DNA of 64,000 nt, from NCBI RefSeq assembly GCF_023161665.1, contig NZ_JALNTW010000001.1:127454-191453 (forward strand). The letters run 5' to 3'. Made by a program: the position numbers and the translations under genes. Below are positions 4,624 through 23,626 of the stretch, piece after piece (position 1 is the first letter of the stretch; every line of letters starts with the position of its first letter). This DNA is from Shewanella sp. 1CM18E. Its GTDB lineage: Bacteria; Pseudomonadota; Gammaproteobacteria; Enterobacterales; Shewanellaceae. Under the pieces are notes generated by a model that saw only the letters and a list, made by a program, of their open reading frames with translations, had not been told where the DNA came from and did no database searches.

Positions 4624-4650
4624 TTATCGGCAGCAATCCAAATAACTTTA
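4624..4650 (-). promoter_or_regulatory. Sigma-28 (FliA) promoter for flgO-flgP
   Basis: On the minus strand TAAAGTTA, 11 bases, GCCGATAA is a nearly perfect FliA promoter. It is about 125 bases upstream of the flgO start and points towards it. Confidence 0.82.
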
Positions 4651-5073: not shown

Positions 5074-5075
5074 TA

Positions 5076-5092
5076 CAGGCACAAAATTTGCT
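5076..5092 (+). promoter_or_regulatory. Sigma-54 promoter for flgT
   Basis: GGCAC, five bases, TTGCT with a 12-base GG-to-GC spacing, about 80 bases upstream of flgT. It begins immediately after the MITE right end, so any upstream enhancer for the sigma-54 activator would have to lie in or beyond the element. Confidence 0.72.
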
Positions 5093-5171
5093 TAACCATT
5101 GGAATGAGGCGCTAGTGTCAGATAAGCGACGTTTGCCCCAAAAGAATTGGCTTTAACTATTGGAAGCAGAG

Positions 5172-6341: not shown

Positions 6342-6428
6342 TCTAAAAATACAATGATTAAGCGCATAGTTATCGAATAACCTCATAAATATGCGCTCAA
6401 GAGTCCATAAACTCACAAAAGAGGCAAT

Positions 6429-6458
6429 ATGAAGTTGATAAAAATCGCCATAGGATGA
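6429..6458 (+). pseudogene. Possible remnant of a small exported protein (9 codons)
   Basis: ATG with GAGG 5 bases upstream opens MKLIKIAIG and stops at TGA; the same frame continues IILFKKHG before a second stop. It resembles the start of a signal peptide or membrane segment interrupted by a stop codon. It is very short and could be chance. Confidence 0.15.
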
Positions 6459-6567
6459 ATCATTCTTTTTAAAAAACACGGCTAACGAACATTAATTAAG
6501 CAATTAAATTTAAAGAGTTTTCATCTGGCCTTTTCATCTAAGTCAAAACCAGTATAATCGACATCGT

Positions 6568-6643
6568 CTCCCTATAGCTCAACAGGATAGAGCAGTCGCC
6601 TCCTAAGCGATCGATCGGGGTTCGAGTCCCTGTGGGGAGACCA
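6568..6643 (+). tRNA. tRNA-Arg (anticodon CCU)
   Basis: A 76-base cloverleaf with encoded CCA. The acceptor stem is CTCCCTA/TGGGGAG with discriminator A. The D stem is GCTC/GAGC. The anticodon stem is GTCGC/GCGAT around the loop CTCCTAA, with anticodon CCT at 6602-6604. The T stem is CGGGG/CCCTG (one G-T pair) with loop TTCGAGT. It reads the rare arginine codon AGG. It lies between the flagellar genes and the glycan cluster. A perfect 8-bp hairpin (CATATACA/TGTATATG, 6642-6663) overlaps its 3' end and may help termination or processing. Confidence 0.95.
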
Positions 6644-6967
6644 TATACATGCCTTTGTATATGCATTTAGTGATTATCAGCCAGATCTCGCGCTAATGAA
6701 GTAGTGTCGCTTCACTATTGCTAAGCCAGCATCATCTAATTTGATGTCCTGAAAACCCTGTTTAAATTCCAACAATGCTAAATTTATTGGTTTCGCCGCC
6801 GATAGTATTACCTAAAGATTGGTATAAATTATCGCTTTGAATACTCAGCAAAGTTATCAAGTTTGAGTGTGATATGATTACGCGCATTTATCAGCCTATA
6901 CAATTGCTGTAAACCCGTAAGACCAATAAGCGCAAATGGACAAGTTTAGCATTAGGAATCACCAAGT
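6644..6967. other. Intergenic stretch between the tRNA and the NeuB-like gene
   Basis: No ORF worth calling. It contains the hairpin at the tRNA 3' end, a sigma-28-like site (6779-6806), and GATTGGTATAA at 6818, a nine-base partial match to the MITE terminal repeat. No integrase gene and no clear att repeat of the tRNA end were seen. Confidence 0.5.
6779..6806 (+). promoter_or_regulatory. Sigma-28-like promoter upstream of the NeuB-like gene
   Basis: TAAAATTT, 12 bases, GCCGATAG resembles the FliA consensus, with one base more than the usual 11-base spacer. It is about 160 bases upstream of the NeuB-family gene and would tie the glycan cluster to late flagellar expression. Confidence 0.45.
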
Positions 6968-7828
6968 ATGAGTCAGCCGTTATTTATTGCAGAAGTGTCT
7001 AGCAACCACCATAAAAGTTTAGATCGTTGTATTGAATTTATTGAAACTTCTGCCGCAATTGGCTGTGACGCGGTCAAATTCCAGCTCTTTAAAATTGATC
7101 AGCTTTTCTCGAGTGAAATTCTAGAGAAAAGTGAAATGCATCGCGCCAGAAAAGAGTGGGAACTTCCTGTTGAATTTATTCCAGCATTACGTGAAGCCTG
7201 TGAGCATTTTAATATTCAGTTTTCTTGTACGCCTTTTTATTTAAAAGCAGTAAAAGAGCTTGAGCCTTATGTACATTTTTTCAAAATTGCCTCTTATGAG
7301 CTGCTTTGGACAGACTTATTAATTGAGTGCGCCAAGACCCAATTGCCTGTTGTGATCTCCAGCGGCATGGCAACCATTGAAGAGATAGATGGTGCGATTG
7401 CAACGCTTAAACAACATGGTGCCGATGATATTACGCTATTGCATTGTGTTTCAGCTTATCCCACCCCTGAAGACCAATGTAACTTAGCTGTTTTACAAAC
7501 ATTTAGAGAAAGATATGGGGTGAAAGTCGGTTGGTCTGATCACACCGTATCCCCCGCTGTACTTAACCGAGCAATTCATAAGTGGCAAGCTGACACCATT
7601 GAGTTTCATCTCGATTTAGATGAGCAAGGTGCTGAATATGCAGCTGGACATTGCTGGCTTCCACAGCAGATAGCACCGGTTATTCGGGGGGCAAAACTGA
7701 TAGATGCTATTGATGGTAACCCTATTAAACAATTCGTCCCCTGTGAAACTGCAGATAGAGAGTGGCGCGCCGATCCCGAAGATGGTTTACGTCCATTTAA
7801 ACAGATCCGTGCAAGCTTTCAGGGATAG
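6968..7828 (+). CDS. Short NeuB-family (sialic/pseudaminic acid synthase-like) enzyme without SAF domain
   Basis: The 286-residue protein has the NeuB barrel signatures: FIAEVSSNHHKS near the N-terminus, CDAVKFQLF (residues 33-41), FKIASYEL (105-112), ISSGMAT (130-136), LLHCVSAYPTP and GWSDHT (188-193). NeuB, LegI and PseI condense phosphoenolpyruvate with a hexosamine to make nonulosonic acids. Two departures stand out. The usual EKHFTLD motif reads EFHLDLDEQGAEY (212-224). The protein also ends after the barrel, whereas PseI/NeuB are about 340 residues with a C-terminal antifreeze-like SAF domain that completes the active site. Its substrate may therefore differ from the PseG product. It faces the ATP-grasp/SDR/DXS-like run; an IS remnant overlaps its 3' end. 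Confidence 0.78.
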   Translation: MSQPLFIAEVSSNHHKSLDRCIEFIETSAAIGCDAVKFQLFKIDQLFSSEILEKSEMHRARKEWELPVEFIPALREACEHFNIQFSCTPFYLKAVKELEPYVHFFKIASYELLWTDLLIECAKTQLPVVISSGMATIEEIDGAIATLKQHGADDITLLHCVSAYPTPEDQCNLAVLQTFRERYGVKVGWSDHTVSPAVLNRAIHKWQADTIEFHLDLDEQGAEYAAGHCWLPQQIAPVIRGAKLIDAIDGNPIKQFVPCETADREWRADPEDGLRPFKQIRASFQG

Positions 7829-7967
7829 ACTTCAGCAGTTGAGCATCTTCATTTTGCTCGACAAGCTGTTTCAGCTTTTTGTCTTGCCCTGCTATTCGCT
7901 CATTAAGCTGTAAATAGTACTCATGACGCTCAATCAGCTCCTGCATTAACATGGGAGAGATAGGCAC
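7797..7967 (-). pseudogene. Remnant of an IS110-type transposase
   Basis: On the minus strand an open frame of about 56 codons (GTG at 7967, TAA at 7797) encodes LIERHEYYLQLNERIAGQDKKLKQL and then DAQLLKSIPES. This resembles the coiled-coil linker of IS110-family transposases that precedes a LLxxIPGIG motif, which is broken off here just at the similarity edge near 7815-7820. No DEDD catalytic part, no RuvC-like N-terminus and no ends were found, so only a fragment survives. It overlaps the 3' end of the NeuB-like gene, so an old insertion or deletion may have shaped that gene's C-terminus. The family call is from memory and moderate. Confidence 0.5.
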
Positions 7968-8075
7968 TTTCTAGCTAATCAATGTGAACCAACGCATAAC
8001 TCCATAGCGATGATGGTTCGTCTCTTTTATTGCCTAATCCTAAGGTTAGCTTAGAGATTAGACGCACCATCTAAT

Positions 8076-8101
8076 TAAGCCCTTATTGCTACTTAAGGGC
8101 T
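8076..8101 (-). terminator. Terminator of the minus-strand glycan operon
   Basis: A 9-bp inverted repeat AAGCCCTTA / TAAGGGCTT just downstream of the ATP-grasp stop, followed on the minus strand by a weak T-rich run. Confidence 0.55.
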
Positions 8102-8113
8102 TTCAGGTTAACG

Positions 8114-9346
8114 CTACAGGGTTGAGACTTTTAAGGTGTCATACACCCAGTTGACTCTCTGCTCCAATTGTTGACGATCATCGGCGGTGACGATAAAGAC
8201 TCCGAACCGACTCGCGTGACTTGTGGTTTCAGGTACCACATCACCCACTTGATACCAGATCTCAAGCTTCTTAACAAAATCTTCAGCTTGAATAGTTTCA
8301 ATTCCCGAGATAGACGTGACTTTTCCTGGCTTTGGAAAGAAGTAACGATTCGCTACCGCTTGGTCGATAATTGGCGTTAGCTTCTCTAACTCTGGTGGCT
8401 CGCCCAAGGCAATGTTAAGTGCTGCCTCGACATAATTTATCCCGAGGCCTAAAGGAACTAGACTTTCAGAAAAATCACCACCGCTTAGGCGAGTTGCAAC
8501 CTCAATAATTTTAGGGCCTACATCGGTATACACAATATCGCCTTTAATCACACCATCTGTTAGGCCAAGAGCCAAAGCCGCTTGCTCAATTAAGGCTTCC
8601 ACTTTAGCTCTTTTTTCACCTTGAATTAAACTTGGCTGCCAACCACCATTCTCAATAATATTGGGTGCAAACCGACTTAACATTTCGTAGTTACGATCGA
8701 CATAACCAGGTGTATAGGCTTGCCCACGATACATGATGGTCTCGGTGCTAATCTGTGGCCCTGCAAGGTACTCCTCCACCATCACGTCACCAGCAAAAGA
8801 CTCTCTTTTAGCCTTGTCATAAAGCGCTGACAAATCCGAGCCCTGCGTCAGTAAAAACACACCTCTGGCACCAGAACGGTCGAGAGGCTTGATGATTAAC
8901 GGCAAGCCTCTTTTAGCTGCTATCTGCGCTAAATGCTCGGCACTTTCTAATAAGCAAAACCAAGGAATAGCGACACCGTGGCGCTCAAAACATTGCTTCA
9001 TCTTAAGCTTATTAGTGGTAATCATGGCCGCTTCAATAGGAATATGCGGCACCTGAATATGTTCAGCCAGCTGAGCGACATATTGTGATATATCGCTGCC
9101 CATAACGCACACGGCATCAATTTTTCGCTGTCGCTCTTGGTAGTCATCGACAAAAGCTTTTAAGGCTACTAAGTCCATGGTACTGACAACAGCATAATCA
9201 TCGGCAATCGCAAACCCGGGAGAGTCAGGGTTTGCATCGACAACGACCGTGTACAAGCCCATCTTGTTCGCTGTTTTGATCAAAAACAGCTGATCACGAC
9301 TGCCACCAAGTAGCAGTACTGTTTTATGACATTTAGCTAGCGACAT
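8114..9346 (-). CDS. ATP-grasp carboxylate-amine/thiol ligase-like protein
   Basis: The 410-residue protein has an N-terminal Rossmann-like preATP domain (TVLLLGGSRDQLFLIKTANKMG), then an ATP-grasp fold: PLIIKPLDRSGARGV (P-loop-like), the VMVEEYLAGPQIS hinge, and IIEVATRLSGGDF with the metal-binding E-x-R set. A C-terminal domain of about 90 residues follows. Such enzymes activate a carboxylate as an acyl phosphate and join it to an amine, making amide bonds. It is last in the run that begins with the methyltransferase; AGGAG stands before its ATG, three bases after the SDR stop. Exact substrates cannot be told from sequence. I infer that it attaches an acid to an amino-sugar or related amine. 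Confidence 0.8.
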   Translation of the reverse strand: MSLAKCHKTVLLLGGSRDQLFLIKTANKMGLYTVVVDANPDSPGFAIADDYAVVSTMDLVALKAFVDDYQERQRKIDAVCVMGSDISQYVAQLAEHIQVPHIPIEAAMITTNKLKMKQCFERHGVAIPWFCLLESAEHLAQIAAKRGLPLIIKPLDRSGARGVFLLTQGSDLSALYDKAKRESFAGDVMVEEYLAGPQISTETIMYRGQAYTPGYVDRNYEMLSRFAPNIIENGGWQPSLIQGEKRAKVEALIEQAALALGLTDGVIKGDIVYTDVGPKIIEVATRLSGGDFSESLVPLGLGINYVEAALNIALGEPPELEKLTPIIDQAVANRYFFPKPGKVTSISGIETIQAEDFVKKLEIWYQVGDVVPETTSHASRFGVFIVTADDRQQLEQRVNWVYDTLKVSTL

Positions 9347-9349
9347 CTA

Positions 9350-10102
9350 TTAAGCTCCTAAAATAGCACCGCCACTCACAGCTAATACTTGAGCAGTCAT
9401 ATATTGCTGCTCATCAGAGGCTAACATCACACAAGCACTGGTGATATCTTCCATACGAGCCGCCTTCTTTAGCAAGGTCATATCGATCACTTTTTGCCCC
9501 GCAGGACTATCTATCTCATCGGCGGTTTGATCCGTACGAACGATACCAGGCGCAACGGCATTAACAAGAATATTGTGCTCTGCCCCATATCGTGCGATCA
9601 CTTTAGTTAGGCTATTGAGTCCTGCTTTAGATACCGCATAGTGAACCGTTTTAGGGCCATGGTATTGTCCGGCTACTGATGAAATATTGATAATACGACC
9701 GCCTTGCTGCGCTTGCATGTAAGGGAACACTTCTTGGCAACAGATAAAAGGTCCTTTAAGATTCACTCCCATTATCTCGTCCCAAGCTTCATCGGTCACT
9801 TCATCAAACCAACCGCGCTTATTGATCCCCGCATTGTTGACCAAGATATCGATCTTTCCAAAAGCGGCTACAGTCTGTTCGAATAACTGCTTTATCTCGG
9901 CTCGCTCAGTAACATCAGCCTTAACAGCAATGGCACTGTGTCCATCCAAATTAAGCTTATCGGCTAACGCCTTAGCTTGCGCTTCACTATGGACATAATT
10001 GATTACGACCTTGGCTCCTTGAGCCCAATACTCCTGTGCGATCGCGGCGCCAATGCCTCTTGAAGATCCAGTAATAACCGCAACTTTACCAGCTAAACGC
10101 AT
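9350..10102 (-). CDS. Short-chain dehydrogenase/reductase (classical SDR)
   Basis: A 250-residue classical SDR: TGSSRGIG (residues 11-18) binds NAD(P), NNAG at 89-92, and catalytic S142, Y155 and K159 in YAVSK are all present, as is the N-terminal MRLAGKVAVITG start. It resembles FabG-like 3-oxoacyl or sugar ketone reductases. The frame is open further upstream, but the ATG at 10102 is chosen: it overlaps the DXS-like stop (TGATG) and AGGAG lies at good distance. It probably reduces a keto group made by the preceding DXS-like enzyme; that is inference from the coupling. Confidence 0.85.
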   Translation of the reverse strand: MRLAGKVAVITGSSRGIGAAIAQEYWAQGAKVVINYVHSEAQAKALADKLNLDGHSAIAVKADVTERAEIKQLFEQTVAAFGKIDILVNNAGINKRGWFDEVTDEAWDEIMGVNLKGPFICCQEVFPYMQAQQGGRIINISSVAGQYHGPKTVHYAVSKAGLNSLTKVIARYGAEHNILVNAVAPGIVRTDQTADEIDSPAGQKVIDMTLLKKAARMEDITSACVMLASDEQQYMTAQVLAVSGGAILGA

Positions 10103-11880
10103 CACTTGGTCACTCCTAAATAGTTTGGCCATTGCTGTGCAATTTGCTCAATGATCTGCCCTGGCATCATGCCGCACTCGGCGCTGCACTCATCTTTGCT
10201 GCCTGGATGAACAAACTTGTCATCAACGCCGCTTCTTAGTACCTGCATAGATATGTTTGCATCAGCAAGGGTTTCTAGCACTAGAGAGCCAAAACCGCCA
10301 TTAAGCACGCTTTCTTCAAGTGTTATCAGGTGCTTTGTTTGCGCAACTAACTCAATAAAACGCTCTGCAGGGAAAGGTTTAATCGATTGCACACAGATGA
10401 TGCCGTAGTCTTTGCCCTGCGCAGCTAATAGTGCTCTAAGCTCATATGCCGCAACTAACCGGTTGCCCAAACAGACTAAGTAACCATCACGGCCCTGCAC
10501 TGGGACAGATAGACCACAAGGCTCAATCAAACCGGCATCGGGTTCTGGATCTGGAATAGGCTCATAGGGATAGAGGATCACCATAGGACCCTTGGGATTG
10601 GCGAGGCGCTTCTCAATCAACTCTGTTAATGCAGCAGAGCTTGCTGGGTATACCAACTGCATATTCGGGAATGAGCGCAGATAGGGAATATCATAAATTC
10701 CGTGGTGGGTCGCGCCATCATATCCAGCAAAGCCAGCACGCACGCCAAATACCGTCACAGGTAAATCCATATAACAAGCATCATGAATAAGCTGATCGTA
10801 GGCGCGTTGCATGAAGGTCGTTTGCATACAGACGACAGGCTTTTTGCCACCCAGCGCTAGACCACAAGCCATACCTACCGCTTGTTGCTCAGCCATTCCT
10901 ACATCCAGTGCACGCTCAGGAAACAATGCTAAGCACTCATCCAATGATGATGCATAAGGGGTAGCTGGGGTCATGGCAAAAACATCTTCATCCGTTGCCA
11001 TCTTTTGTTTAAGTGCTTCAGCTGCAACAACCGCGTAGGTGCGCCCAACTACCGTCGCTGCAGCACCTTTGCCGGTGGCAGCATCGAACGGCATAGAGAA
11101 GTGCATCTTGTAAGGATGATCTTTCGCACAGGCCAAACCTTTCCCCTTCTCGGTTTTAACATGCACAATCACAGGCCGCGCTAATTGCTTCGCAGCAGCT
11201 AACTGCTCAAGCAGAGTCGGCATATCATGGCCATCTTCTACTAACAAATAGGCAAAGCCCATCCCTTCGAAGAAGGCTCGGCTATTGCTCTGCCAATTTT
11301 CCCCTGCTGTAAGGTTACGCATTCCTCCAACAGACTTTGCAATTGCCATTTCATTATCGTTAAGCACAATGACCAGCTTACTGTCTTTATCTTCAGCACA
11401 ATAATTAAGCCCTTCGAAAGCCATTCCCTCAACCATCGAGCCGTCACCGATCAAAGAAACAACATAATTAGCTGGCGAAGTCAGCTTAAGGGCTTTGGCA
11501 TAGCCTGACGCTATAGAGAGTGAAGTACCTGCATGGGATGCATCGATTGCGTCATGCTCGCTTTCATCTCTGGCTACGAAACGATTCATGCCGCGATATT
11601 GGTTTAATGTGGCAAAGTTATCCACGCGTCCCGTTAAAATCTTATGGGTATAACCTTGATGACCCGTATCAAAAATCACTTTATCGTCTGGAGAGTTAAA
11701 GAGTGCATGAATGGCAACAGTGAGTTCTACCACTGATAAGTTAGCGCCGATATGTCCGCCAGTCGCAGAAATATTGCTAATAAGAAACTGCCTAATATCT
11801 TCGGCTAATTGGGTTAATTGCGCCGCCGACTGCTGTTTCAGTTCATTGAGAGTCGGCACGACTAATTGATGGGTTTTCAT
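10102..11880 (-). CDS. DXS/transketolase-like thiamine-diphosphate enzyme
   Basis: The 592-residue protein covers the whole length of 1-deoxyxylulose-5-phosphate synthase: N-terminal GGHIGANLSVVELTVAIH and DTGHQGYTHKILTGR, the ThDP motif GDGS (145-148) to LNDNE, the catalytic glutamate in MAEQQAV (E331), QRAYDQLIHD with R359, VRAG with R381, and DGATHHG with H392. In true DXS a YPRG motif supplies a second phosphate-binding arginine; here the place reads YPYE (437-440). The enzyme should keep the DXS-type reaction (pyruvate decarboxylation and transfer to an aldehyde) but may use a different acceptor. The start is the ATG at 11880 with AAGGA before it, two bases after the upstream stop. It is unlikely to be the housekeeping DXS, given its genomic company. 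Confidence 0.82.
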   Translation of the reverse strand: MKTHQLVVPTLNELKQQSAAQLTQLAEDIRQFLISNISATGGHIGANLSVVELTVAIHALFNSPDDKVIFDTGHQGYTHKILTGRVDNFATLNQYRGMNRFVARDESEHDAIDASHAGTSLSIASGYAKALKLTSPANYVVSLIGDGSMVEGMAFEGLNYCAEDKDSKLVIVLNDNEMAIAKSVGGMRNLTAGENWQSNSRAFFEGMGFAYLLVEDGHDMPTLLEQLAAAKQLARPVIVHVKTEKGKGLACAKDHPYKMHFSMPFDAATGKGAAATVVGRTYAVVAAEALKQKMATDEDVFAMTPATPYASSLDECLALFPERALDVGMAEQQAVGMACGLALGGKKPVVCMQTTFMQRAYDQLIHDACYMDLPVTVFGVRAGFAGYDGATHHGIYDIPYLRSFPNMQLVYPASSAALTELIEKRLANPKGPMVILYPYEPIPDPEPDAGLIEPCGLSVPVQGRDGYLVCLGNRLVAAYELRALLAAQGKDYGIICVQSIKPFPAERFIELVAQTKHLITLEESVLNGGFGSLVLETLADANISMQVLRSGVDDKFVHPGSKDECSAECGMMPGQIIEQIAQQWPNYLGVTK

Positions 11881-11882
11881 TA

Positions 11883-13094
11883 TCAATCCTTACTATTAGG
11901 CTTTACGCAGATAAGCACAGTATTGGTGCCATAGGGGTCTGTTTCGTCATAAATAATGCCCGCTTTGATACCGATCACTTTGACGACAATAAAATACTGG
12001 TTAACGAGTGCCAGCAGCTCATCGAGAGAATATTCAATAAGGTGGCAAGAGTTAACGGGGATATGGCCTATGCTATTTTGAGGTGTACTTAACACTAAGA
12101 CACCGCCAGGTTTCAGCACGCGCTTTATTTCGCTTAGGCACTCATGCTCAGGAACATGCTCAAGGGTTTCAAAACTGGTAACTGCGTCGTAGGACTCATC
12201 TGCAAAAGACAACTTAGTAATGTCTTCAACAAAATATTCGGTATTAGCAGCACTGTTATTTTTCTTAGCAAACTCGACACTCAACTCGTCTAAATCGGCG
12301 CCGTGAACCTCTTTTAAATGACTCGCCATAATGTTGACCCCGTAACCATCGGCACAGGCGATATCGATAATCTTCATATCAGGCTTGAGATGCTGCAAGG
12401 CGAGCTCGTAATGAAAGCCCAATCTGTCACCAGAGACAATACGATGCTCATTCACCTCTTGGCGCGGAATCGCATAAATTTGCGTTGCTAAGCGGCGGCA
12501 CTCAGTCAAATATTCATCTGAATAGCTTGGTAACTCAGTTAAAAACTTAACTTTGTATCGCTGAGCGTTCATCGAAAAGTAGCACTTAGGGTGCACGAGA
12601 AACTTGGCGTCCTCAGGCTGAGTGAGTTCATCATTGATCGCTTTTAGTGCACCGATACGAAAGACTTCTGAGGTAAAGTGCACAGGAAAATCATCGGGTA
12701 ACTTGATACAATCTAATTGCTCACTGATGGCGATATCCAGCATCGCTAAACTAGCCTGAGGGTCGAAGCAAAAATGAATGCCATCGACTCTGATCACATA
12801 ATCGCTATCGGCTAAATCTGAACAAGCATCAATCATTCGATTAAGCGGGCTCGCATCGTGGCCGTAATACAAAGAAAGACGCTCATCATCGATAAGCTTA
12901 ACGATCTCATCGAGCTCTCCGCCATAATCGAACTCAGGAGCAACCAAGACGACTTCTAAATCGGTAAAATGGCTCAAGACACGGCGAATGGTACGAACAA
13001 CAGCAATCTCGTCCTCGACCATCCCCATACAGATATCGACGCCACCAGCCCATGAGCGTGAACTGGCTTGCACTAATACTCTTGTTTTTATCAT
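11883..13094 (-). CDS. Fusion of SpsF-like nucleotidyltransferase domain and SAM methyltransferase
   Basis: A 403-residue two-domain protein. Residues 1 to about 215 resemble the SpsF/CMP-KDO-type cytidylyltransferase fold: MIKTRVLVQASSRS at the start, then LYYGHDASPLNRMIDA and DYVIRVDGIHF in the order of GRS..VL.R...A and YIVRITGDCPL, but the R-L-P-G-K nucleotide loop is absent, so this half may be inactive. Residues about 235-395 form a class I methyltransferase (IIDIACADGYG, HGADLDE, FETLEHVPE, VLKPGGVLVLSTP). It could modify a nucleotide- or acyl-linked intermediate. The ATG at 13094 is chosen for its AGGA site; the frame is open to 13133, overlapping the previous gene. Confidence 0.68.
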   Translation of the reverse strand: MIKTRVLVQASSRSWAGGVDICMGMVEDEIAVVRTIRRVLSHFTDLEVVLVAPEFDYGGELDEIVKLIDDERLSLYYGHDASPLNRMIDACSDLADSDYVIRVDGIHFCFDPQASLAMLDIAISEQLDCIKLPDDFPVHFTSEVFRIGALKAINDELTQPEDAKFLVHPKCYFSMNAQRYKVKFLTELPSYSDEYLTECRRLATQIYAIPRQEVNEHRIVSGDRLGFHYELALQHLKPDMKIIDIACADGYGVNIMASHLKEVHGADLDELSVEFAKKNNSAANTEYFVEDITKLSFADESYDAVTSFETLEHVPEHECLSEIKRVLKPGGVLVLSTPQNSIGHIPVNSCHLIEYSLDELLALVNQYFIVVKVIGIKAGIIYDETDPYGTNTVLICVKPNSKD

Positions 13095-13126
13095 GTTAAT
13101 TCCTATTGAAGCGGCTTCATTTTGCA

Positions 13127-14050
13127 TTAGCAACTGCGCTTACGGGCGTAGATGCAGATCTCTCTGCCGACACCGATTTCAGCCATAGATTGATACCAAG
13201 CCCTTTTCAGATCATTCTGACCAGACTCGATCAGGCTCATTTCAAATTTCATTCTTTTCTTATGACAAGCCCTGCCTAACTCATCGTTACCGACGTAGTT
13301 ATCCCCCATCAACAAGAACATATCTATTGGGAAACTAGACTCTTTCAAGAAGACATCAAACCCAGAGTTATTCAACAATTGAGTCAGAGAACTGACATCA
13401 AAATAATTCAGGTGGTGAGGAGGTGCTAACCACCAAGGCTCAAGTCCATCGACCTCTCTAACGGTCTTTTGGAATGGATTGTAATCATTGGGAACTGAGA
13501 TACAGACCAACCCACCATCCTTGACGAGTAAATGAATACACTCCAGTAACTCAATAGGGTTAGGAATATGCTCGAGCACATTACAAGCATGAACCACATC
13601 AAAAGGTTCAAATTGCTTTACGCTGGTAGGATTTAAAAAATCGCTTACCACATCGATTCCCAGTTCTCTGGCGTGCTCACTCGCCTGTTTGGAGGGTTCA
13701 ATACCTTGAGTGACCCATCCTCGTTGCTTACCGTGATGTAAGAAAAATCCAGGACCGGCGCCAACATCAAAGACGCGCCGATTGCCCGTTGGTAGATGCG
13801 TTTCAAAAGTATCAAATCGGTCGGCAAAAACACGTTCCCACCAGATCGCGTCCTCTTTGCTTTGACTTAAAAACAATGGCTTATCTTTAGTGTAATACTC
13901 TTCTCGATAAACCTGCTCCAACTCCTGTGCCGTAGGCATTGGCGATACATGCTTAAAACCGCATACTTCACAATCGATAACATTAAAGCCATGACGATTG
14001 TCGATGACGTTACCAGTGTGCTGTTGAGCATCGCTGTTTGTGCCAGCCAT
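13127..14050 (-). CDS. Class I SAM methyltransferase with N-terminal Cys motif
   Basis: A 307-residue protein. The N-terminus has CEVCGFKHVSPMP followed by YREEYYTKDK, a pattern common to methyltransferase family 23/11 proteins of O-antigen and flagellin-glycan clusters. The Rossmann core shows VFDVGAGPGFFLHHGKQRG, GIEPSK and ACNVLEHIPNP, then HLNYFDVSSL. The ATG at 14050 has AAAGGAG at ideal distance, better than the upstream ATG at 14086. It is followed 32 bases later by the nucleotidyltransferase-methyltransferase fusion, so two methyl transfers may occur in one pathway. The acceptor is unknown. Confidence 0.8.
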   Translation of the reverse strand: MAGTNSDAQQHTGNVIDNRHGFNVIDCEVCGFKHVSPMPTAQELEQVYREEYYTKDKPLFLSQSKEDAIWWERVFADRFDTFETHLPTGNRRVFDVGAGPGFFLHHGKQRGWVTQGIEPSKQASEHARELGIDVVSDFLNPTSVKQFEPFDVVHACNVLEHIPNPIELLECIHLLVKDGGLVCISVPNDYNPFQKTVREVDGLEPWWLAPPHHLNYFDVSSLTQLLNNSGFDVFLKESSFPIDMFLLMGDNYVGNDELGRACHKKRMKFEMSLIESGQNDLKRAWYQSMAEIGVGREICIYARKRSC

Positions 14051-14161
14051 GTTTACTTCTCCTTTACGCATTCTTCGCTGTGACAAGCAAAATGCATACC
14101 GATAATTTTTTGACGAATAAAAAACACCAAAAGTAATGTTGAAGCTAGAGCGACCTTTTCA

Positions 14162-15148
14162 TTAACCTTTAAAGGAGGGGTCATTGACTTGCAAAAATCG
14201 CGCAGTGAGTATTTTACTCATAATATTGTCTATGCCATTGGGAATTGAGCACGGTTCGGATTCAAATAAACAAATTTTGTCCAACTCTGTCATATCAATG
14301 GCTCTGGCGAGCTGTTTTTCGGCAAAACTTTGGCTGGCGATATGGTGATCGGGCTGAGTACAAATATGACAAGCAGGAATATTTAGTACGGCAAGCTCAT
14401 ACGCGCTCATGCCAAAAGTGATAACAGCAAAGTCCATCTGCCGCATTAACTCCGCCATATTCGCAAGATTAGAATACAGAGTTACACTCATAGACAACTG
14501 CTGTTCGCGGCTCAATGACATGTAGTCTGGGTGACTCTGCTTTATAACGACATGCAAAGACAATTCGCTGTCCAACTGTCGTAACCGCTCTACAACAGCG
14601 CTGGTTAAACGATGAGGATCGGTCCCCCCCATCATAACCAATACCTTACGCGGTTGATTGCGGGGCTTTAAAAATGGCTCAAAAAATGCTTCTCTGACCA
14701 ATAAATAATCCCACCCCACATATCGCTTGCCATTAAAGCCTTGCCAATCTAACGCTTCCACTAATGGGCTCGGAGGATAAAAGAGTAAATCGCAGCCTAA
14801 ACGATAGTCACTCGGTTCATCGATAGCCACGGTCAAAATATTCGCTTGTTGCATCATAGCTATGGCCTGCAAAGGCAGACCGTCACGAATATCGCCGATA
14901 AAGATATCAGGGCATTGTTGCTTAATCACTTGCTGACACCATTGCATATAATCAATGTGCTCAAACAACTGCACATCAAAGCCATGACCCGCTAATGCCT
15001 GCATAGCAATAGCATCGTTATTAACGACAAAGCTGACTCTATGACCAGCCTCAACAAAGGCATTAGCTAAGCAGATGCAACGAACGATATGGCCCATTCC
15101 GACTTGAATTGATGCATCACAGCGAAACATCACATGCTGAATAGTCAT
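14162..15148 (-). CDS. pseG: UDP-sugar hydrolase PseG (pseudaminic acid biosynthesis)
   Basis: A 328-residue GT-B-like protein with the PseG/SpsG signatures: FRCDASIQVGMGHIVRC at the start (glycine loop and catalytic His), DEPSDYRLGCDLL, KVLVMMGGTDPHRLT for nucleotide binding, and FGMSAYELAVLNIPA. PseG removes UDP from UDP-2,4-diacetamido-2,4,6-trideoxy-L-altrose to give the free sugar that PseI condenses with PEP. It heads the minus-strand run, about 110 bases before the methyltransferase, and is divergent from the GH57-like gene. The ribosome site (GAGCAAT) is weak. Confidence 0.88.
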   Translation of the reverse strand: MTIQHVMFRCDASIQVGMGHIVRCICLANAFVEAGHRVSFVVNNDAIAMQALAGHGFDVQLFEHIDYMQWCQQVIKQQCPDIFIGDIRDGLPLQAIAMMQQANILTVAIDEPSDYRLGCDLLFYPPSPLVEALDWQGFNGKRYVGWDYLLVREAFFEPFLKPRNQPRKVLVMMGGTDPHRLTSAVVERLRQLDSELSLHVVIKQSHPDYMSLSREQQLSMSVTLYSNLANMAELMRQMDFAVITFGMSAYELAVLNIPACHICTQPDHHIASQSFAEKQLARAIDMTELDKICLFESEPCSIPNGIDNIMSKILTARFLQVNDPSFKG

Positions 15149-15494
15149 ATTGCTCTAGTACCTATATTTAGCGGCTATGAAGGAAATACCATCAGCAAGA
15201 TAACACAAAGATCACAGTATCAAGTGAGTTAGTCGCTTACTGCGTAATAAACAGCATTTTTAACACTTTTGTTGCCTAAACGGTAGCTTGTCGGTGCTAA
15301 TTTGTTAGCACACCAAAACACCTGTAGCTAAAAGCTATGGCTCAAGTTAGTTTATTACTGCAATTCACCATCTTAGGTCAAACTATTACCGTGACTAGTG
15401 ATTGAGAATCACCTCATTTATGCTTAAACTAAAATCCCTCTGACAGCGATAAAGCTGTCTACTGTTAAAAAGTTTTATTGCGTTAAGAGTCCCT
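15149..15494. promoter_or_regulatory. Divergent intergenic region with operator-like palindromes
   Basis: This region separates pseG (minus) from the GH57-like gene (plus). Two perfect inverted repeats are visible: GTGCTAA-TTTG-TTAGCAC (15294-15311) and GACAGC-GATAAA-GCTGTC (15442-15459). They are candidates for regulator binding or leader hairpins. No sigma-54 or clear sigma-28 site was recognised. Confidence 0.4.
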
Positions 15495-17441
15495 ATGGCC
15501 AACACCCCGCTCCCCAATGTCTACGCGATTTTCCATTTGAACTTAGCGTTTTCCTCTATCGACACTAGCGAACATCAGCGAGTACTCAATCTGTGTTACT
15601 GGCCGTTACTGCATTTAATTGAGCGCAATAATATCCCTTTGGGAATTGAACTCACAGCTTATACTCTCGAATGCATTCAAGCAGTTGACTCTAGCTGGAT
15701 CGACAAATTTAAAGTGCTACTGACAGAGGGATGTTGTGAGCTTATTGCCAGCGGAGATAGCCAAATTATTGGGCCATTACTGCCTTGGGAAGTGAATATA
15801 CAAAACTTGTCACTTGGGCAAAAAAGTTATCAAGCCCTCCTCAATTATCAACCTAAAGTTGCCTACATTAATGAGCAGGCCGTATCAGCGGGTCTATTAG
15901 ATTGCTATATCGACTGTGGCTTTGATGCCGTTGTTGTTGAGTGGGATAATCCCTTTTCGCACAATACAGATTGGGACAAATCATCTCGCTATCAACCGCA
16001 GCAACTTGTCGCAGCTTCTGGACGGACTATCAAAGTGATCTGGAACCATGCCGTCGCTTTTCAAAAGTTTCAGCGCTATGCCCATGATGAAATGACCCTA
16101 ACCGAATATTTCGAATATCTAGACACAGAGACCCGCGGCGTAACGGCATTTTCTCTGTATGGCAGCGATGCCGAAGTCTTCAACTACCGGCCAGGGCGTT
16201 TTCATACTGAAGCGACACTCTTTGTCGATGAATGGCATCGCATTGAGCAGTTATTCACTCAAATTAAGTCCCAACAAAAATACCGCTGGGTTATGCCAAG
16301 CGAGCTATTATCTGCGACTCAAGAATACAGCACACTAAAGGTCCAGACCCCAGCCCATCCCATTTCGGTAAAAAAACAGGCAAAATATAACGTAACCCGC
16401 TGGGCGCTATCGGGACGAAACGATCTCAGCATTAACAGCCTCTGTTATAGAAAGTATTCACAGCTAAAGGAATTAGAACACGTCAGTGAACAGCAGTGGC
16501 GAGAACTTTGCCGCCTCTGGGCCAGTGATTTACGCACACATCTTACACATAAGCGCTACCAAGACTTACTGGACCGTTACCCCATTGCCATGACGGCAAC
16601 CCAGACTGCACCAAAAGCAGATTTAGAAGCGACCCGTAAAGCGAATAGCGACTATCAAGTGTATCACTGTAGCGAGCGCAACATACTCACTGTCGAGCAC
16701 CCTCAAATTAAGCTGGTGCTTAATGGCAAACGGGGCATGGCGATAAAGTCTTTGGCTTTTGCTCGTCACAACTTTAAGCCTATTATTGGTACGCTTGCCC
16801 ACGGCTATTTTGATCATATCAGCTATGCCGCTGATTTTTATTCTAACCATTTAGTTATAGAGCGCTACTGTGAGAGAGACAGAGTCACAGACTTAAGCCG
16901 AACCCAGTTTAATATTACTCACACTAGTACAGGGCTGATCATCAGTACAGAGATAGCAACACTACAGGGAAAACTAACTAAATGGTATCGACTCGAAAAC
17001 GAGCAAATTGAGTGTGGTTTCGATTTTAAAAATCGACATCGACCGGAAGCAACGATCAGACTCGGTTACCTTACGCTCCTAAACTGCAAACAACGCCATT
17101 GGTTTGCCTGCCACAATGGCGGCAAATTGCTGGAGACATATCACCCGGAGCAAGACTTTAACCATGGCACCCCTGTTTCATCAATTGTTTCTGCAAATAG
17201 TGCCTTAGGGGCAACTGAAGGTGTCTTTTACACTGGTTGTGACGACCTAGGTCTTAAGATCAGCTGGTCACCTCAGTCTTGCGCCGCCCTGCCTATGCTT
17301 TCTAGCCAAAGGGTAAATAATAGTTACTTAAATCGTGCCTGGTTTTCACTTTCTGAGGCCGATGAAACGCTCAAAGCTGATGGCGAGCTGTTGAACTTTA
17401 GCTATCAAATCACTCCATGTTTTAAAACGGATATTAATTAA
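15495..17441 (+). CDS. GH57-like (polysaccharide-active barrel) protein of unknown role
   Basis: A 648-residue cytoplasmic protein with no signal peptide. The N-terminal ~270 residues look like a GH57/GH38-type barrel: IFHLNLAFSSID near residue 12 where GH57 has its first His motif, IPLGIELTAYTLECI, CCELIASGDSQIIGPLLPWEV, the KVAYINEQAVSAG segment (121-133, where GH57 has its nucleophile Glu), GFDAVVVEWDN and FSLYGSDAEVF. The rest is strand-rich, consistent with a C-terminal beta domain. Assignment to GH57 is by pattern and tentative; catalytic residues are not certain. It is followed three bases later by the SpsF-like gene, so the two are co-expressed and should act on the same glycan. Confidence 0.55.
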   Translation: MANTPLPNVYAIFHLNLAFSSIDTSEHQRVLNLCYWPLLHLIERNNIPLGIELTAYTLECIQAVDSSWIDKFKVLLTEGCCELIASGDSQIIGPLLPWEVNIQNLSLGQKSYQALLNYQPKVAYINEQAVSAGLLDCYIDCGFDAVVVEWDNPFSHNTDWDKSSRYQPQQLVAASGRTIKVIWNHAVAFQKFQRYAHDEMTLTEYFEYLDTETRGVTAFSLYGSDAEVFNYRPGRFHTEATLFVDEWHRIEQLFTQIKSQQKYRWVMPSELLSATQEYSTLKVQTPAHPISVKKQAKYNVTRWALSGRNDLSINSLCYRKYSQLKELEHVSEQQWRELCRLWASDLRTHLTHKRYQDLLDRYPIAMTATQTAPKADLEATRKANSDYQVYHCSERNILTVEHPQIKLVLNGKRGMAIKSLAFARHNFKPIIGTLAHGYFDHISYAADFYSNHLVIERYCERDRVTDLSRTQFNITHTSTGLIISTEIATLQGKLTKWYRLENEQIECGFDFKNRHRPEATIRLGYLTLLNCKQRHWFACHNGGKLLETYHPEQDFNHGTPVSSIVSANSALGATEGVFYTGCDDLGLKISWSPQSCAALPMLSSQRVNNSYLNRAWFSLSEADETLKADGELLNFSYQITPCFKTDIN

Positions 17442-17444
17442 ACC

Positions 17445-18650
17445 ATGAACGTTATAGCAATTGTCGGTGCTCGCCTAAACTCAAGCCGCCTCCCAGGAAA
17501 GCACCTTCTATCTCTTGTCGGAAGGCCTATCATTCAGCATATTCAAAACCGCCTAGATCGCTGTCAAACATTGACAGATATCGTACTGGCTACCACTTTA
17601 GATGAATTCAACCAGCCACTCATAGACTGGGCAAATGATAATAGCCATTGCCTCGCTTACTCAGGTGATGTTAATGACTTAATGGGACGGATCAATGCCG
17701 TCGTCGAACAGTATCAAGCGGATATAGTGGTCTATATTTGTGGGGACTGCCCACTAATTGAACCTGAGTTTATCGATCATGCTGTGAACCAACTACGTCA
17801 AAACCCACAAGCCAATAGTATTTCTCTAGCGCCAGATGTGCGCTCTATACATGAGGGTATGGCATTTTACACTCGCCAAGGTTGGGATAATCTGTTTGTG
17901 AATAGCGTAAGTGATATGGAGAAAGAGCATGTCGGCTATGCTAATCAAAGATGCCATTGCCTAACTCCATTATTAATCCAAGACAGTGATGACTTCTCTG
18001 GCGTAGAACATAGGATTTCAGTCGATACTGATGCCGACTACCGTTTTATGCAACAGGTATATCAACGTTGGTATGCGCAAAACAGTGCCGATTCCATCGT
18101 GTCATTGAAGTGGGTCGTACAGACTCTCAAACAAGAAGCCTCTCTAAGGCTGATAAATGGTCATGTAAAACAGAAAAAAGCAGCTCAGAAATACCTGTCG
18201 GTATCACTGTATTGTACTTATCAAGTCGCTAATGATGCACTATATCAATTGAGTGTAAAGCTAGGGGCAGCGCTACAGGAACACTACGGTTTAGGTACTC
18301 AACTTCATGTACTGACAACGGAAACTCTGCAAGCCACACGGTCGCAAAATAGCCAAATATACCATGAAGAGCAGGCTTTTATTGACGCATTAAAACACGA
18401 TGGCAAACACTTAACACTTTATCTGCTGCCCATGTCATTACAGCAGCAAATCGAGCAGTTTAAACATCAGCTTGCAGCGGATAACAGCCTTGCCATTGAG
18501 CTTTTCGAGCCTATAAAGCATAGACAGTCCTCCCGCAGTTTCGCATTTAAATGGTTAAATAACAGGACAGAACAAACCACAACGCAAGACGTTGTAATTG
18601 ATGAATTAACCCTCGAACAATTAGCAAAACTCATCACAAACTTGCCATAA
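17445..18650 (+). CDS. PseF/SpsF-like cytidylyltransferase with an extra C-terminal domain
   Basis: The 401-residue protein begins with a complete nucleotidyltransferase domain (about residues 1-235): MNVIAIVGARLNSSRLPGKHL, IVLATTLDEFN, AYSGDVNDLMGRINAV, VVYICGDCPLIEPEFID and EHRISVDTDADYRFM. This is the SpsF type used to activate nonulosonic acids as CMP-sugars, so it probably serves as PseF. Residues about 245-401 form an additional alpha/beta region that I do not recognise; ordinary PseF proteins are only about 230 residues. A fusion partner tied to the GH57-like neighbour is possible. A strong terminator follows. Confidence 0.75.
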   Translation: MNVIAIVGARLNSSRLPGKHLLSLVGRPIIQHIQNRLDRCQTLTDIVLATTLDEFNQPLIDWANDNSHCLAYSGDVNDLMGRINAVVEQYQADIVVYICGDCPLIEPEFIDHAVNQLRQNPQANSISLAPDVRSIHEGMAFYTRQGWDNLFVNSVSDMEKEHVGYANQRCHCLTPLLIQDSDDFSGVEHRISVDTDADYRFMQQVYQRWYAQNSADSIVSLKWVVQTLKQEASLRLINGHVKQKKAAQKYLSVSLYCTYQVANDALYQLSVKLGAALQEHYGLGTQLHVLTTETLQATRSQNSQIYHEEQAFIDALKHDGKHLTLYLLPMSLQQQIEQFKHQLAADNSLAIELFEPIKHRQSSRSFAFKWLNNRTEQTTTQDVVIDELTLEQLAKLITNLP

Positions 18651-18659
18651 GAATGGCTA

Positions 18660-18688
18660 AAATAGCGGCAATTTTTTTGCCGCTATTT
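18660..18688. terminator. Bidirectional terminator
   Basis: AAATAGCGGCAA / TTGCCGCTATTT with a T-rich loop, placed between the convergent SpsF-like gene and pseC; the flanking A and T runs suit both directions. Confidence 0.85.
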
Positions 18689-18706
18689 CAATTTTATAGA
18701 ATAAAT

Positions 18707-21196
<2,490 letters not shown>

Positions 21197-23626
21197 ATGC
21201 AAAGCACAAACTCAAATACCTTTAATACTTTTGCGATAAGTCAGTTTAACGAATACTACTTACCTAGTGTCAATCGCCAAATCTTTGAAACTATTGATTC
21301 TAAAACTCACTTCGACAAACTATTTAAAGTCGAGTTTGCTAAAAAGAATACGCTGCATGTTGTTATCGGTATCGACTCGGGATTACTTGCCAACTATGTT
21401 CTTGAGTCCGTTCTACCTGCCGACAGCCAATTTATATTTGTTGAACTAGATAGTGTATTGGAGCTACTCAATGTCGAGATCCCCGAGGAATTAAAACAGC
21501 AGGTCTCTATTTGCACAATTAATGAGCTTACGGAGATCCTCAATAGCCGTTGTAATCCCGTTTACATCATTAAAGATAAGCTCGTCGTTCACCAGTCTCT
21601 CGGTGTAAGAGCTCAGCACTTAGCCGAATACGCCCAGCTGAGCAGTGATGTCATGACTACAGTTAATCAAGCAACATGTGAACATAAAACCTCTTTTAAC
21701 CAAGAGATCTTCGTAGAACAACAACTGCTTAATTTAACAGAAAACCATATTCCGGCATCGATCCTAAAAGGGCGGTATCAGGGCAAAACCTGTATTGTGA
21801 CTGCGGGCGGCCCCTCATTAGATGAGCACATACCATGGATTAAGGATAATAAAGACAAGCTCTTCATTATTGCGGTTTCGCGCGTCGCGGCCAAATTAAC
21901 CAAAGAGGGAATCGCACCGCAAATTATTGTCTCTGTCGATCCTCAAGAGCTGAGCTTAGAGGTCAATAGCGAAATGATGGCATTGTATGATAGCTCTTTG
22001 CTCGTTCACTCCTATCACATCTGTTCCAGAATTCTTTCTCAATGGCGTGGACGTCACCTATTCACTGGCAACCGTCTCCTATGGGATGAGACTAATGATA
22101 AAGATAATATTAAATCTGTTGGCCCAACTGTAACTAATGCTGCTATAACAATTGCAGCGGAGCTAGGTTTTACTCAAGTACTACTCACTGGTGCAGATTT
22201 TTGCTACTCGAAAACAGGACATACCCACACCACGGGCACATTAGAGGCTAATCTCGGTCCCAATATGGGGCACATCGGAGATTGGGTTGAGACCTATTGT
22301 GGTGATAAAGCCGAGACTATTTTCCAACTAACTGAAGCCAAAACTGCTTTAGCCTATCAGGTGTCAACTCTACCTCAGTGTAAAGTCATTAACCTTTCAC
22401 CTAATGCCGCGATCATTCCCAATATAGCTCATCTAGCATTAGATAAAATCGTTATTAAAGCTGCAAACTGTAGTCACCAAGCGCTATTTTCATTTGTTGA
22501 TAAGCAAACCATTGATTTAAAAAAGCACTACCAATATTGTCTAAAGCAGATGAGTGAAGCCGTATCATCGCTACAGGCGATATTAACATTGGCAACCACA
22601 GCGCTAAAGCTCAATCAAAAGCAGAGCCAAGCAGAGCAATTAGATAAAATTGAACACAAGATCAATAAGCACCACGGTAAACTCGCTAAAGTCATTAAAT
22701 TCTATGGTTACTTGGAATTTAGCCGTTTCCTCTCTACAACTGAAAGCAGTCAGTGGTCACAAGTACACATAGAGAAAATGACAGCTAACTACTATGAGGC
22801 GTTTATTAGCGTGTCTAAGAAGCTTGAAGTCATTTTCAAGCGAGCACAACAGCGCTGTCTCTCTCGCCTAAACGAAGTAAACCAACCTGACGACATTGAG
22901 CCACTCATCGAGCAATGGCTACAAGATAATCAACCTGGGCGTTCGCTCGTATGGGCACACAATTTAACTCGTGAGCTATCAAGTAAAGAGGTATTAGCAC
23001 TAGAGCCTTTAATTAATGAGTTTCAACTACGGCTAACCGATCATCAGCGTTACCAGTCAAAGCTGGCAGCAGGTTACTCGCTTGAAGAAGCCTTTAATAA
23101 GATAATGACGTTAGTCATCAAGAAAAACCTTCAAGGACTCATGCTTATGGCTAGCACACTAAAGCCTCGCGCTAGAGAAAGTGAGCTAGCAAAACGCTTA
23201 TATCACTTAGCTTATTCCTATTGTTTAGAGCTACAGGGCGAACCTCAACAGGCACTCACGACATTGTTAGAGTTAGGTTCTGAGCTATTTACTGAAGTAG
23301 AGTTTAAGCAGGTAAGTGTCCTGTCGCTAAAACTCGGACATCTAGAACTTGCAGCCCTTGCATTACAGCAATTGGTAAGTTTAAGCGATGAGTACCTGCC
23401 GCAATATGCACATTTACTCAAGCTCCAAGGACAAGCTCAACTCGCGCTGAACACCTATATGGACTACCTAGATAAATACCCTAATGACATCTTAATATGG
23501 TTGAAGTTGGGAGCATTTCTATATGAAGTCGAACAAATACAAACGGCTAGAGATGTCTTCAACCAAGTTCTTGCACTTGACCCAACCAATCAAATTGCAA
23601 TTAATCAATTAGCCAAGATAGCTTAA
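21197..23626 (+). CDS. maf: Maf (motility-associated) flagellin glycosyltransferase with TPR tail
   Basis: An 809-residue protein. The centre (about residues 190-400) is the DUF115/MptE-like domain with TAGGPSLDE near residue 202, IIAVSRVAAKL and VGPTVTNAAITIAAELGF, then LLTGADFCYS. Maf proteins transfer activated nonulosonic acid to Ser/Thr of flagellin in the cytoplasm. The N-terminus (1-190) is an extra alpha/beta domain; residues about 640-809 contain TPR-like helices (YLDKYPNDILIWLKLGAFLYE, ALDPTNQIAINQL). The TPR tail may hold flagellin. The downstream 10-bp hairpin (23635-23657) without a T run may mark the transcript end. Confidence 0.88.
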   Translation: MQSTNSNTFNTFAISQFNEYYLPSVNRQIFETIDSKTHFDKLFKVEFAKKNTLHVVIGIDSGLLANYVLESVLPADSQFIFVELDSVLELLNVEIPEELKQQVSICTINELTEILNSRCNPVYIIKDKLVVHQSLGVRAQHLAEYAQLSSDVMTTVNQATCEHKTSFNQEIFVEQQLLNLTENHIPASILKGRYQGKTCIVTAGGPSLDEHIPWIKDNKDKLFIIAVSRVAAKLTKEGIAPQIIVSVDPQELSLEVNSEMMALYDSSLLVHSYHICSRILSQWRGRHLFTGNRLLWDETNDKDNIKSVGPTVTNAAITIAAELGFTQVLLTGADFCYSKTGHTHTTGTLEANLGPNMGHIGDWVETYCGDKAETIFQLTEAKTALAYQVSTLPQCKVINLSPNAAIIPNIAHLALDKIVIKAANCSHQALFSFVDKQTIDLKKHYQYCLKQMSEAVSSLQAILTLATTALKLNQKQSQAEQLDKIEHKINKHHGKLAKVIKFYGYLEFSRFLSTTESSQWSQVHIEKMTANYYEAFISVSKKLEVIFKRAQQRCLSRLNEVNQPDDIEPLIEQWLQDNQPGRSLVWAHNLTRELSSKEVLALEPLINEFQLRLTDHQRYQSKLAAGYSLEEAFNKIMTLVIKKNLQGLMLMASTLKPRARESELAKRLYHLAYSYCLELQGEPQQALTTLLELGSELFTEVEFKQVSVLSLKLGHLELAALALQQLVSLSDEYLPQYAHLLKLQGQAQLALNTYMDYLDKYPNDILIWLKLGAFLYEVEQIQTARDVFNQVLALDPTNQIAINQLAKIA

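Follow-up and report, generated by a model that had tools for sequence, protein, structure and literature searches.

The window analysed here, a stretch of 64,000 nucleotides from the draft genome of Shewanella sp. 1CM18E, carries a gene block in which a short NeuB-family protein stands beside a thiamine pyrophosphate (TPP) enzyme resembling 1-deoxy-D-xylulose 5-phosphate (DXP) synthase (DXS), a short-chain dehydrogenase/reductase (SDR) and an ATP-grasp protein. This block is the DXS-type version of a known flagellin-modification cluster, sfmABCDE of Shewanella oneidensis MR-1 (SO_3261-3265). In this cluster (Bubendorfer et al. 2013, PMC3765264), a NeuB of 290 amino acids (aa) and a TPP enzyme are encoded together with an SDR, a methyltransferase and an ATP-grasp protein. 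Whole cassettes at this place are replaced between strains, and what is new here is that three exchangeable classes of TPP enzyme occupy one slot, mostly with a matching type of SDR and ATP-grasp protein. The chemical consequence would be that the side chain of a sialic-acid-like sugar on the flagella is changed, likely by swapping whole gene cassettes at the same place. In our judgement, the DXS, SDR and ATP-grasp genes probably form one exchangeable cassette that builds a hydroxylated carboxylic acid and attaches it to a free amine of a pseudaminic-type flagellin sugar. In a literature search by title and abstract, with most subscription papers outside its reach, PMC3765264 was the only one among the papers listed that describes a cluster of such make-up.

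Exchange of whole cassettes at one slot

The short NeuB (at least 67% identity) is present in 23 of 129 Shewanella genomes. The slot between it and a gene for a GH57-like protein is filled by a TPP enzyme of the DXS class in 13 of these, of the IlvB class in six and by a split transketolase (PF00456; PF02779 and PF02780) in four; there is one TPP class per genome, and an SDR is found in all 23. These and the other locus counts rest on score cut-offs of our own choice, and contig ends truncate many of the loci. One transketolase-kind cassette (locus L116, genome G025) is split into several short frames, as if decaying or badly sequenced. Within the genus, cassette-type DXS occurs in exactly the 13 DXS-slot genomes and was not found in the 116 genomes lacking a DXS-kind locus. 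Nor was it found with the block in 368 other gammaproteobacterial genomes (E 1e-95, the three best candidates per genome scored); other phyla were searched only with NeuB as the anchor. Two DXS matches among the 368 genomes (G412 and G536; 364-372 bits, 39-40% identity) have no SDR, ATP-grasp or NeuB match within the 19.5 kb around them.

The clearest exchange is seen between MR-1 and strain PS-2. Their DNA is 94% identical as far as 40 bases from the end of NeuB; identity (91%) resumes from the gene of a two-domain methyltransferase on; between these points sfmBCDE of MR-1 (TPP enzyme, SDR, sfmD and ATP-grasp) is replaced by DXS, SDR and ATP-grasp genes in PS-2, and this is the only difference over the approximately 19 kb compared. 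A similar break separates the window from S. fidelis, its closest relative both by housekeeping dxs (97.9%, among 14 others compared) and by the flanking region. Between these two strains, identity is 92-99% for five proteins to the left of NeuB and 96% for NeuB itself, and the DNA is 92% identical over positions 5070-7819 of the window, with the break nine bases before the end of NeuB; no match follows over 7820-15515, then patches of 66-70%, and 87% identity again from 23729. Another strain (G108) is only 70-77% identical to the window in the flanking DNA, yet 88-93% identical over 8077-24320. In two further pairs of loci the DNA match likewise breaks at the end of NeuB, resuming at the GH57-like gene (96%) in one (L045/L120) and followed by a GH57-like gene of just 71% identity in the other (L118/L119). 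Pairs of the same class (L041/L119 and L042/L119) match throughout, as expected.

Because they are swapped together, the DXS, SDR and ATP-grasp genes can be regarded as one unit, as the initial annotation had proposed on the grounds of their tight packing. It had also placed two methyltransferases in the same sub-pathway, and this part needs correction: the MR-1/PS-2 swap leaves both the two-domain and the second methyltransferase in place, and they are thus separable from the unit. The ATP-grasp protein and, with the exception of one locus, the SDR track the TPP class more closely than do NeuB and the GH57-like protein. ATP-grasp proteins are 57-98% identical within TPP classes vs. a median of 39% between them, with a different ATP-grasp type in three divergent DXS loci; between classes, NeuB ranges from 62 to 99% and the GH57-like protein from 51 to 97% identity, and neither follows the TPP class. 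A NeuB tree built by a quick method, in which 23 of 55 inner branches are weak, requires at least 9 changes of TPP class among the 23 Shewanella rows and 19 among all 58; taken by themselves, its starred branches force 6-8 changes per class over the 58 rows.

Enzymes of the sugar core and of the cassette

The short NeuB matches PF03102 and ends where the full-length NeuB proteins of other Shewanella continue; the segment it lacks is presumably the SAF domain. It keeps the Lys, Glu and His positions common to full-length NeuB and lacks an N-terminal hairpin, a loop and the C-terminal domain, a truncation that could make room for a bulky acyl group. Its AlphaFold2 model (mean confidence score, pLDDT, 92.5) is nearest in fold to NeuB (1xuu), a Leptospira NeuB with a 290-aa chain (6ncs) and PseI (8h2c). 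The window genome has no other NeuB-family match, and a full-length PseI was not found in it. Indeed, the short form is the sole NeuB in 21 of the 23 Shewanella genomes, MR-1 included; two (G116 and G049) have a second, full-length NeuB, and a 25-bit match in G096 was disregarded. PseC exceeds its cut-off in 59 Shewanella genomes, namely all 23 with the short NeuB and 36 others, 35 of which have a full-length NeuB. The two groups also differ in the acetyltransferase of the pathway: PseH-like matches lie within 10 kb of NeuB in at least 27 of the 36 full-length genomes vs. none of the 23 short-NeuB genomes. Many of the matches in the full-length genomes fall under the family cut-off, which just 11 of the 129 genomes pass. 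No PseH above the cut-off was found in the 23 short-NeuB genomes; they have weaker acetyltransferase matches, none of them near the locus among those listed.

The flagellin of MR-1 carries a nonulosonate (PMC3765264), and with no second NeuB in that genome, the short form is the most likely synthase of this sugar. It therefore most likely belongs to the sugar core, in the role of PseI, and not to the side-chain sub-pathway in which it had first been placed; it also stays when the cassette is swapped. The proposed link of the block to pseudaminic-type glycosylation is borne out, in that PseC lies within 20 kb of the short NeuB in all 23 Shewanella genomes and deletion of the MR-1 counterpart changes the flagellin mass (PMC3765264).

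The GH57-like gene accompanies the short NeuB without exception in the genus (23/23 genomes vs. 0/106 others; the MR-1 copy lies at L112:17089-19005). Its product has invariant Glu127 and Asp225, and its AlphaFold2 model (pLDDT 91.9) is closest to the GH57 glucanotransferase 1k1x and to GH38 mannosidases. To our knowledge, no known step of nonulosonate synthesis needs such a protein. A role as a substitute for PseG was considered and rejected, because loci with PseG also have the GH57-like gene and, in Shewanella genomes without a separate PseG, the cytidylyltransferases carry a PseG-like C-terminus. A separate PseG is present in only five of the 23 genomes, the window included. In the other genomes the cytidylyltransferase has 566-608 aa (14 complete copies; four more are cut or missing in the DNA compared), and its C-terminal half is a PseG relative (profile match 99.2%); the five genomes that have PseG as a gene of its own encode a cytidylyltransferase of 401-408 aa with a decayed C-terminus. 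It seems that acquisition of a stand-alone PseG went along with loss of the PseG half from a fused cytidylyltransferase-PseG.

Within the cassette, the ATP-grasp protein has the C-terminal domain of L-amino-acid ligases (LAL_C2), and L-amino acid ligases (3vot and 4wd3) are among its solved relatives. The DXS-like protein scores above the NCBI dxs cut-off (490 vs. 466 bits), as do 10 of the 13 cassette copies. However, the window genome has a housekeeping dxs on another contig (C40, 972 bits), and so does each of the 15 Shewanella genomes tested (958-985 bits), the cassette copies being extra. In E. coli DXS, the substrate phosphate is bound by the Arg of the YPRG motif and by the Tyr that precedes STFLQR. 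When the window copy and its 120 nearest relatives were compared with six housekeeping copies, this Arg was Tyr in 121/121 cassette-type proteins (Arg in 6/6 housekeeping ones) and this Tyr was Gln in 121/121 (Tyr in 6/6); six other active-site positions were kept in all 121, the Tyr of STFLQRGYDQ in only 24, and a loop of approximately 35 residues was gone in the rows shown. Judging from these residues, the acceptor is probably not a phosphate. The subfamily (P0121-P0240) extends to Omnitrophota, Bacteroidetes, Thalassotalea and others, and its named members are mostly called DXP synthase, a label that the residue pattern suggests is likely a misannotation.

Beyond Shewanella, the best 80 of 261 relatives of the short NeuB were considered, and their loci are spread across Bacteria, with one archaeal record. 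The latter, a metagenome-assembled genome of Methanoregula (L105), has the short NeuB with PseB, PseC, a PseG-like protein and a cytidylyltransferase, and no flagellin match. A flagellin match was found in 67 of 73 short-NeuB genomes vs. 4 of 14 control genomes. In loci outside Shewanella, the SDR accompanies the TPP enzyme (33 of 37 loci with a TPP enzyme vs. 4 of 31 without one).

Proposed pathway and competing explanations

The MR-1 glycan has a core of 274 Da, a mono-N-acetyl nonulosonate, probably pseudaminate, with a basic group, and a nitrogen-free outer unit, C9H16O7, with up to two extra methyls (PMC3765264). If the outer unit of 236 Da is acyl, mass arithmetic gives an acid C9H18O8 with one degree of unsaturation (the carboxyl). 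A two-carbon unit added to a C6H10O7 acid such as hexuronate or ketogluconate, then reduced and carrying one methyl, gives this formula, and so does the reduced adduct of a C7H12O7 acid without a methyl; a glycolaldehyde unit with C6H10O6 and one methyl is among the other fits, and the mass by itself does not single out one acid. The likely order of steps is as follows. PseB and PseC, whose families are present, would convert UDP-GlcNAc (uridine diphosphate N-acetylglucosamine) to the 4-amino sugar, as in the known Pse pathway, and since no PseH was found, the amine is likely not acetylated. The DXS-like enzyme could use pyruvate as the likely donor of a two-carbon unit and add this unit to an aldehyde- or keto-acid that is not phosphorylated, the SDR would reduce the new ketone and the methyltransferases would O-methylate the product. 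The ATP-grasp ligase is predicted to form an amide between the acid and the amine, in the place of PseH. PseG would then remove UDP, and the short NeuB would condense the sugar with phosphoenolpyruvate (PEP) in the role of PseI. From their families and from MR-1, the cytidylyltransferase would be expected to yield the CMP (cytidine monophosphate) sugar, which Maf would transfer to Ser/Thr of flagellin. Replacement of the cassette would give strains different side chains on an unchanged core.

Several observations weigh against this scheme. The amide of the scheme is a prediction, and the 236-264 Da unit of the MR-1 glycan could be a second sugar; for the window organism, the whole scheme is predicted from its genes. 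If SfmE were the sole attacher of the SfmB-D product, all mutants should look alike; each deletion of sfmA-E shifts the flagellin mass, but the sfmE (ATP-grasp) mutant swims and shows a smaller shift than the sfmA-D mutants, and the SDR mutant retains its filament (PMC3765264). The MR-1 filament shows densities at the glycosylated residues (PMC11839096), and that paper states that no major effect of glycosylation on motility had been reported, in conflict with what deletion of the sfm genes does according to PMC3765264. The swaps are also less regular than the best pairs suggest: in a Pelobacter pair with different TPP classes (L058/L080), the match continues approximately 3.2 kb past NeuB, one ATP-grasp type (60-78% identical) is common to the IlvB and transketolase cassettes, and one divergent DXS locus (L045) has an SDR 69% identical to that of the window, other SDRs following the class. 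Twenty of the 121 cassette-type DXS proteins, that of the window among them, have Gln in place of the active-site His that follows AEQ. Outside Shewanella, no TPP enzyme was seen in 31 of 68 loci (16 of 43 when only loci of at least 18 kb are counted), and a TPP step is thus not a general feature. In 21 of 50 genomes there, NeuB gives a second match above 70 bits; the argument that the short NeuB substitutes for PseI is therefore clean in Shewanella only, and even in this genus G116 and G049 have a second NeuB. Lastly, six of the 73 short-NeuB genomes, SAR11 and two Chlorobiaceae among them, have no flagellin match, and three of the six, including the two Chlorobiaceae, have an IlvB-kind cassette. 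Elsewhere the sugar thus probably decorates something other than flagella. The expectation of the initial annotation that such a block keeps to genomes with flagellar glycan genes accordingly holds only in part: the DXS block was not found outside its context in the gammaproteobacterial and Shewanella genomes searched, and all six flagellin-less genomes have PseB or PseC beside the short NeuB, but the IlvB kind does occur without flagellin.

It could be argued that the product of the block is another sugar joined by a glycosidic bond, for example a branched one such as yersiniose, with no N-acyl chain and with the ATP-grasp protein acting otherwise. Yersiniose synthesis reportedly uses a TPP enzyme and a reductase to make a branched sugar. 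The second unit of the MR-1 glycan is nitrogen-free and only a putative acyl group, and the mildness of the ATP-grasp mutant would suit this explanation as well (PMC3765264). On the other hand, no Pfam glycosyltransferase lies among the genes from NeuB to PseC, the first domain of the two-domain protein resembles cytidylyltransferases, and the ATP-grasp protein, itself from a ligase family, is exchanged along with the TPP enzyme and SDR; in addition, the MR-1 core has one acetyl and a basic group (PMC3765264), with no PseH found there for a second acetyl. On balance, we consider a second sugar unlikely. Even less probable is that the short NeuB itself builds the side-chain acid from PEP and a small aldehyde, another enzyme making the nonulosonate. 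Its missing C-terminal domain and differing loops would suit such a task, as would the second NeuB matches outside Shewanella, and the acyl group reported for the Treponema denticola glycan looks like a reduced, methylated product of PEP and a three-carbon unit. However, this short NeuB is the sole one in MR-1 and 20 other Shewanella genomes, yet MR-1 flagellin has a nonulosonate (PMC3765264); it stays during cassette swaps, and it replaces the full-length NeuB among PseC-bearing genomes. That the DXS-like gene is a second functional DXP synthase in a chance assembly is hardly credible, and this candidate was rejected: although the NCBI cut-off, the names of its relatives and the six conserved active-site positions would favour it, a housekeeping dxs is present, the Arg and Tyr are replaced in every copy, the loop is gone, and the gene fills a slot otherwise taken by IlvB or transketolase genes.

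A wider picture may be drawn, to which we give an even chance of being right. The locus would generate flagellin glycan diversity in an O-antigen-like manner, with a fixed pseudaminate core (SAF-less NeuB and its GH57-like partner) and a slot for carboligase-reductase-ligase cassettes of the DXS, acetolactate synthase or transketolase type, in which ATP-grasp ligases couple varied sugar-derived acids to the core amine where acetyl would otherwise sit; the DXS type would be a separate carboligase subfamily now labelled DXP synthase. This would provide a pathway logic for the 236-264 Da portion of the flagellin glycan in Shewanella, which PMC3765264 leaves unsolved, and would explain a nonulosonate on flagellin in a genome without PseH and full-length PseI. 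Enzymes of a family that carries the DXP synthase label very likely have another activity. The natural allele exchange between the MR-1 and PS-2 types, in Shewanella amenable to laboratory work, makes the role of TPP carboligases in sugar side chains directly testable.

Gene order of the window and comparison with known systems

The window is part of contig C11; the draft genome, with an estimated completeness of 100%, comprises 4.94 Mb on 41 contigs. The genes of the system are listed in Table 1.

Table 1. Genes of the flagellin-modification locus, with positions in the window
Feature	Position	Strand	Evidence and predicted role
Short NeuB (SfmA type, 286 aa)	6968..7828	+	PF03102, 190.6 bits; putative nonulosonate (pseudaminate-type) synthase
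ATP-grasp ligase (SfmE type)	8114..9346	-	PF02655, PF18603 LAL_C2; predicted coupling of side-chain acid to sugar amine
SDR reductase (SfmC type)	9350..10132	-	PF00106/PF13561
DXS-like TPP carboligase, extra copy	10102..11886	-	TIGR00204, 490 bits
Two-domain protein: cytidylyltransferase-like N-terminus and methyltransferase	11883..13133	-	PF08241; hhalign
Second methyltransferase	13127..14086	-	PF13489
Stand-alone PseG-like hydrolase	14162..15148	-	TIGR03590, 143 bits, under the NCBIfam cut-off of 153.6
GH57-like protein	15495..17441	+	PF03065
Cytidylyltransferase (PseF-like role inferred), decayed PseG-like C-terminal half	17445..18650	+	PF02348
PseC aminotransferase	18707..19855	-	TIGR03588, 538 bits, cut-off 423.5
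PseB dehydratase	19852..20853	-	TIGR03589, 551.5 bits, cut-off 407.75
Maf-type flagellin glycosyltransferase candidate, TPR tail	21197..23626	+	PF01973 MptE-like; weak PseD domain match, 34.5 bits (cut-off 670)

Open reading frames, Pfam matches and measured gaps confirm every gene first listed for the block, their order and their tight packing. The ATP-grasp and SDR genes are 3 bases apart, the DXS-like and two-domain genes overlap by 4 and the two methyltransferase genes by 7; SDR and DXS overlap by 31 bases, or fewer if the SDR begins at a later ATG, and 75 bases separate the second methyltransferase from PseG. NeuB, on the plus strand, faces this minus-strand cassette. The nucleotidyltransferase-methyltransferase fusion that had been proposed is upheld by Pfam for the methyltransferase; a Pfam scan found no nucleotidyltransferase domain, but a profile comparison relates the first 255 residues to the cytidylyltransferase family of the locus (hhalign probability 97.4%). 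The genes right of PseG (GH57-like, cytidylyltransferase, PseC, PseB and Maf-type) belong to the system, the last being presumed to have the Maf role. FlgA and a tRNA-Arg lie left of the block, together with other genes that we take to be flagellar or chemotaxis genes. The cassette has a G+C content of 46.0% vs. 41.5-44.4% in other parts, which is no clear mark of a cassette. A match to the FliA pattern before NeuB (6779-6805) has two mismatches, and chance can give such a match; a perfect FliA-type match lies at 4624-4650 (minus strand), ahead of a 205-aa gene (3883-4500). At 26003-31007, a pair of HlyD-type and AcrB-type efflux genes adjoins a TetR-type regulator.

The MR-1 locus was identified as L112 of genome G065, with gene lengths and a FliA site matching PMC3765264; an exact FliA pattern begins 57 bp before sfmA. 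Both loci combine a short NeuB (74% identical to SfmA), a TPP enzyme, an SDR and an ATP-grasp protein beside flagellar genes, PseB/PseC and Maf, with SDR and ATP-grasp adjoining the TPP enzyme, and MR-1 also has counterparts of the two-domain methyltransferase, the second methyltransferase, the GH57-like protein and the cytidylyltransferase. However, the MR-1 TPP enzyme has the IlvB fold (PF02776, PF00205 and PF02775), for which no gene of the window gave a profile match, whereas that of the window is DXS-like, and its SDR and ATP-grasp proteins are just 36-40% identical to those of the window. MR-1 has three methyltransferase genes vs. two, since sfmD has no counterpart in the window (best profile score 66.5 bits, from a gene scoring 514 with its own family; MR-1 SfmD scores 607). 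A stand-alone PseG-like gene is present in the window, whereas PseG has no match in MR-1, and the five sfm genes run in one direction, whereas the NeuB of the window faces the cassette.

In comparison with the canonical CMP-pseudaminate pathway (PseB-C-H-G-I-F), the window has PseB, PseC, a PseG-like protein, a NeuB-family protein and a cytidylyltransferase, but no PseH above the cut-off; its NeuB is short, and the ATP-grasp cassette and the GH57-like gene are added. The DXS-like enzyme shares with DXS the fold family and several TPP-binding and catalytic positions and differs in the replaced Arg and Tyr, the lost loop and the location of its gene within a sugar-modification cassette. The flagellin glycan of Treponema denticola is reportedly a pseudaminate with a 2-methoxy-trihydroxyhexanoyl group at N7. 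It would resemble the glycan proposed here in joining a mono-N-acetyl core of 274 Da to an O-methylated polyhydroxy acyl group, and the corresponding mass sum, 450.18, fits the 450.2 reportedly found for it; its chain, however, needs no two-carbon unit made by a TPP enzyme.

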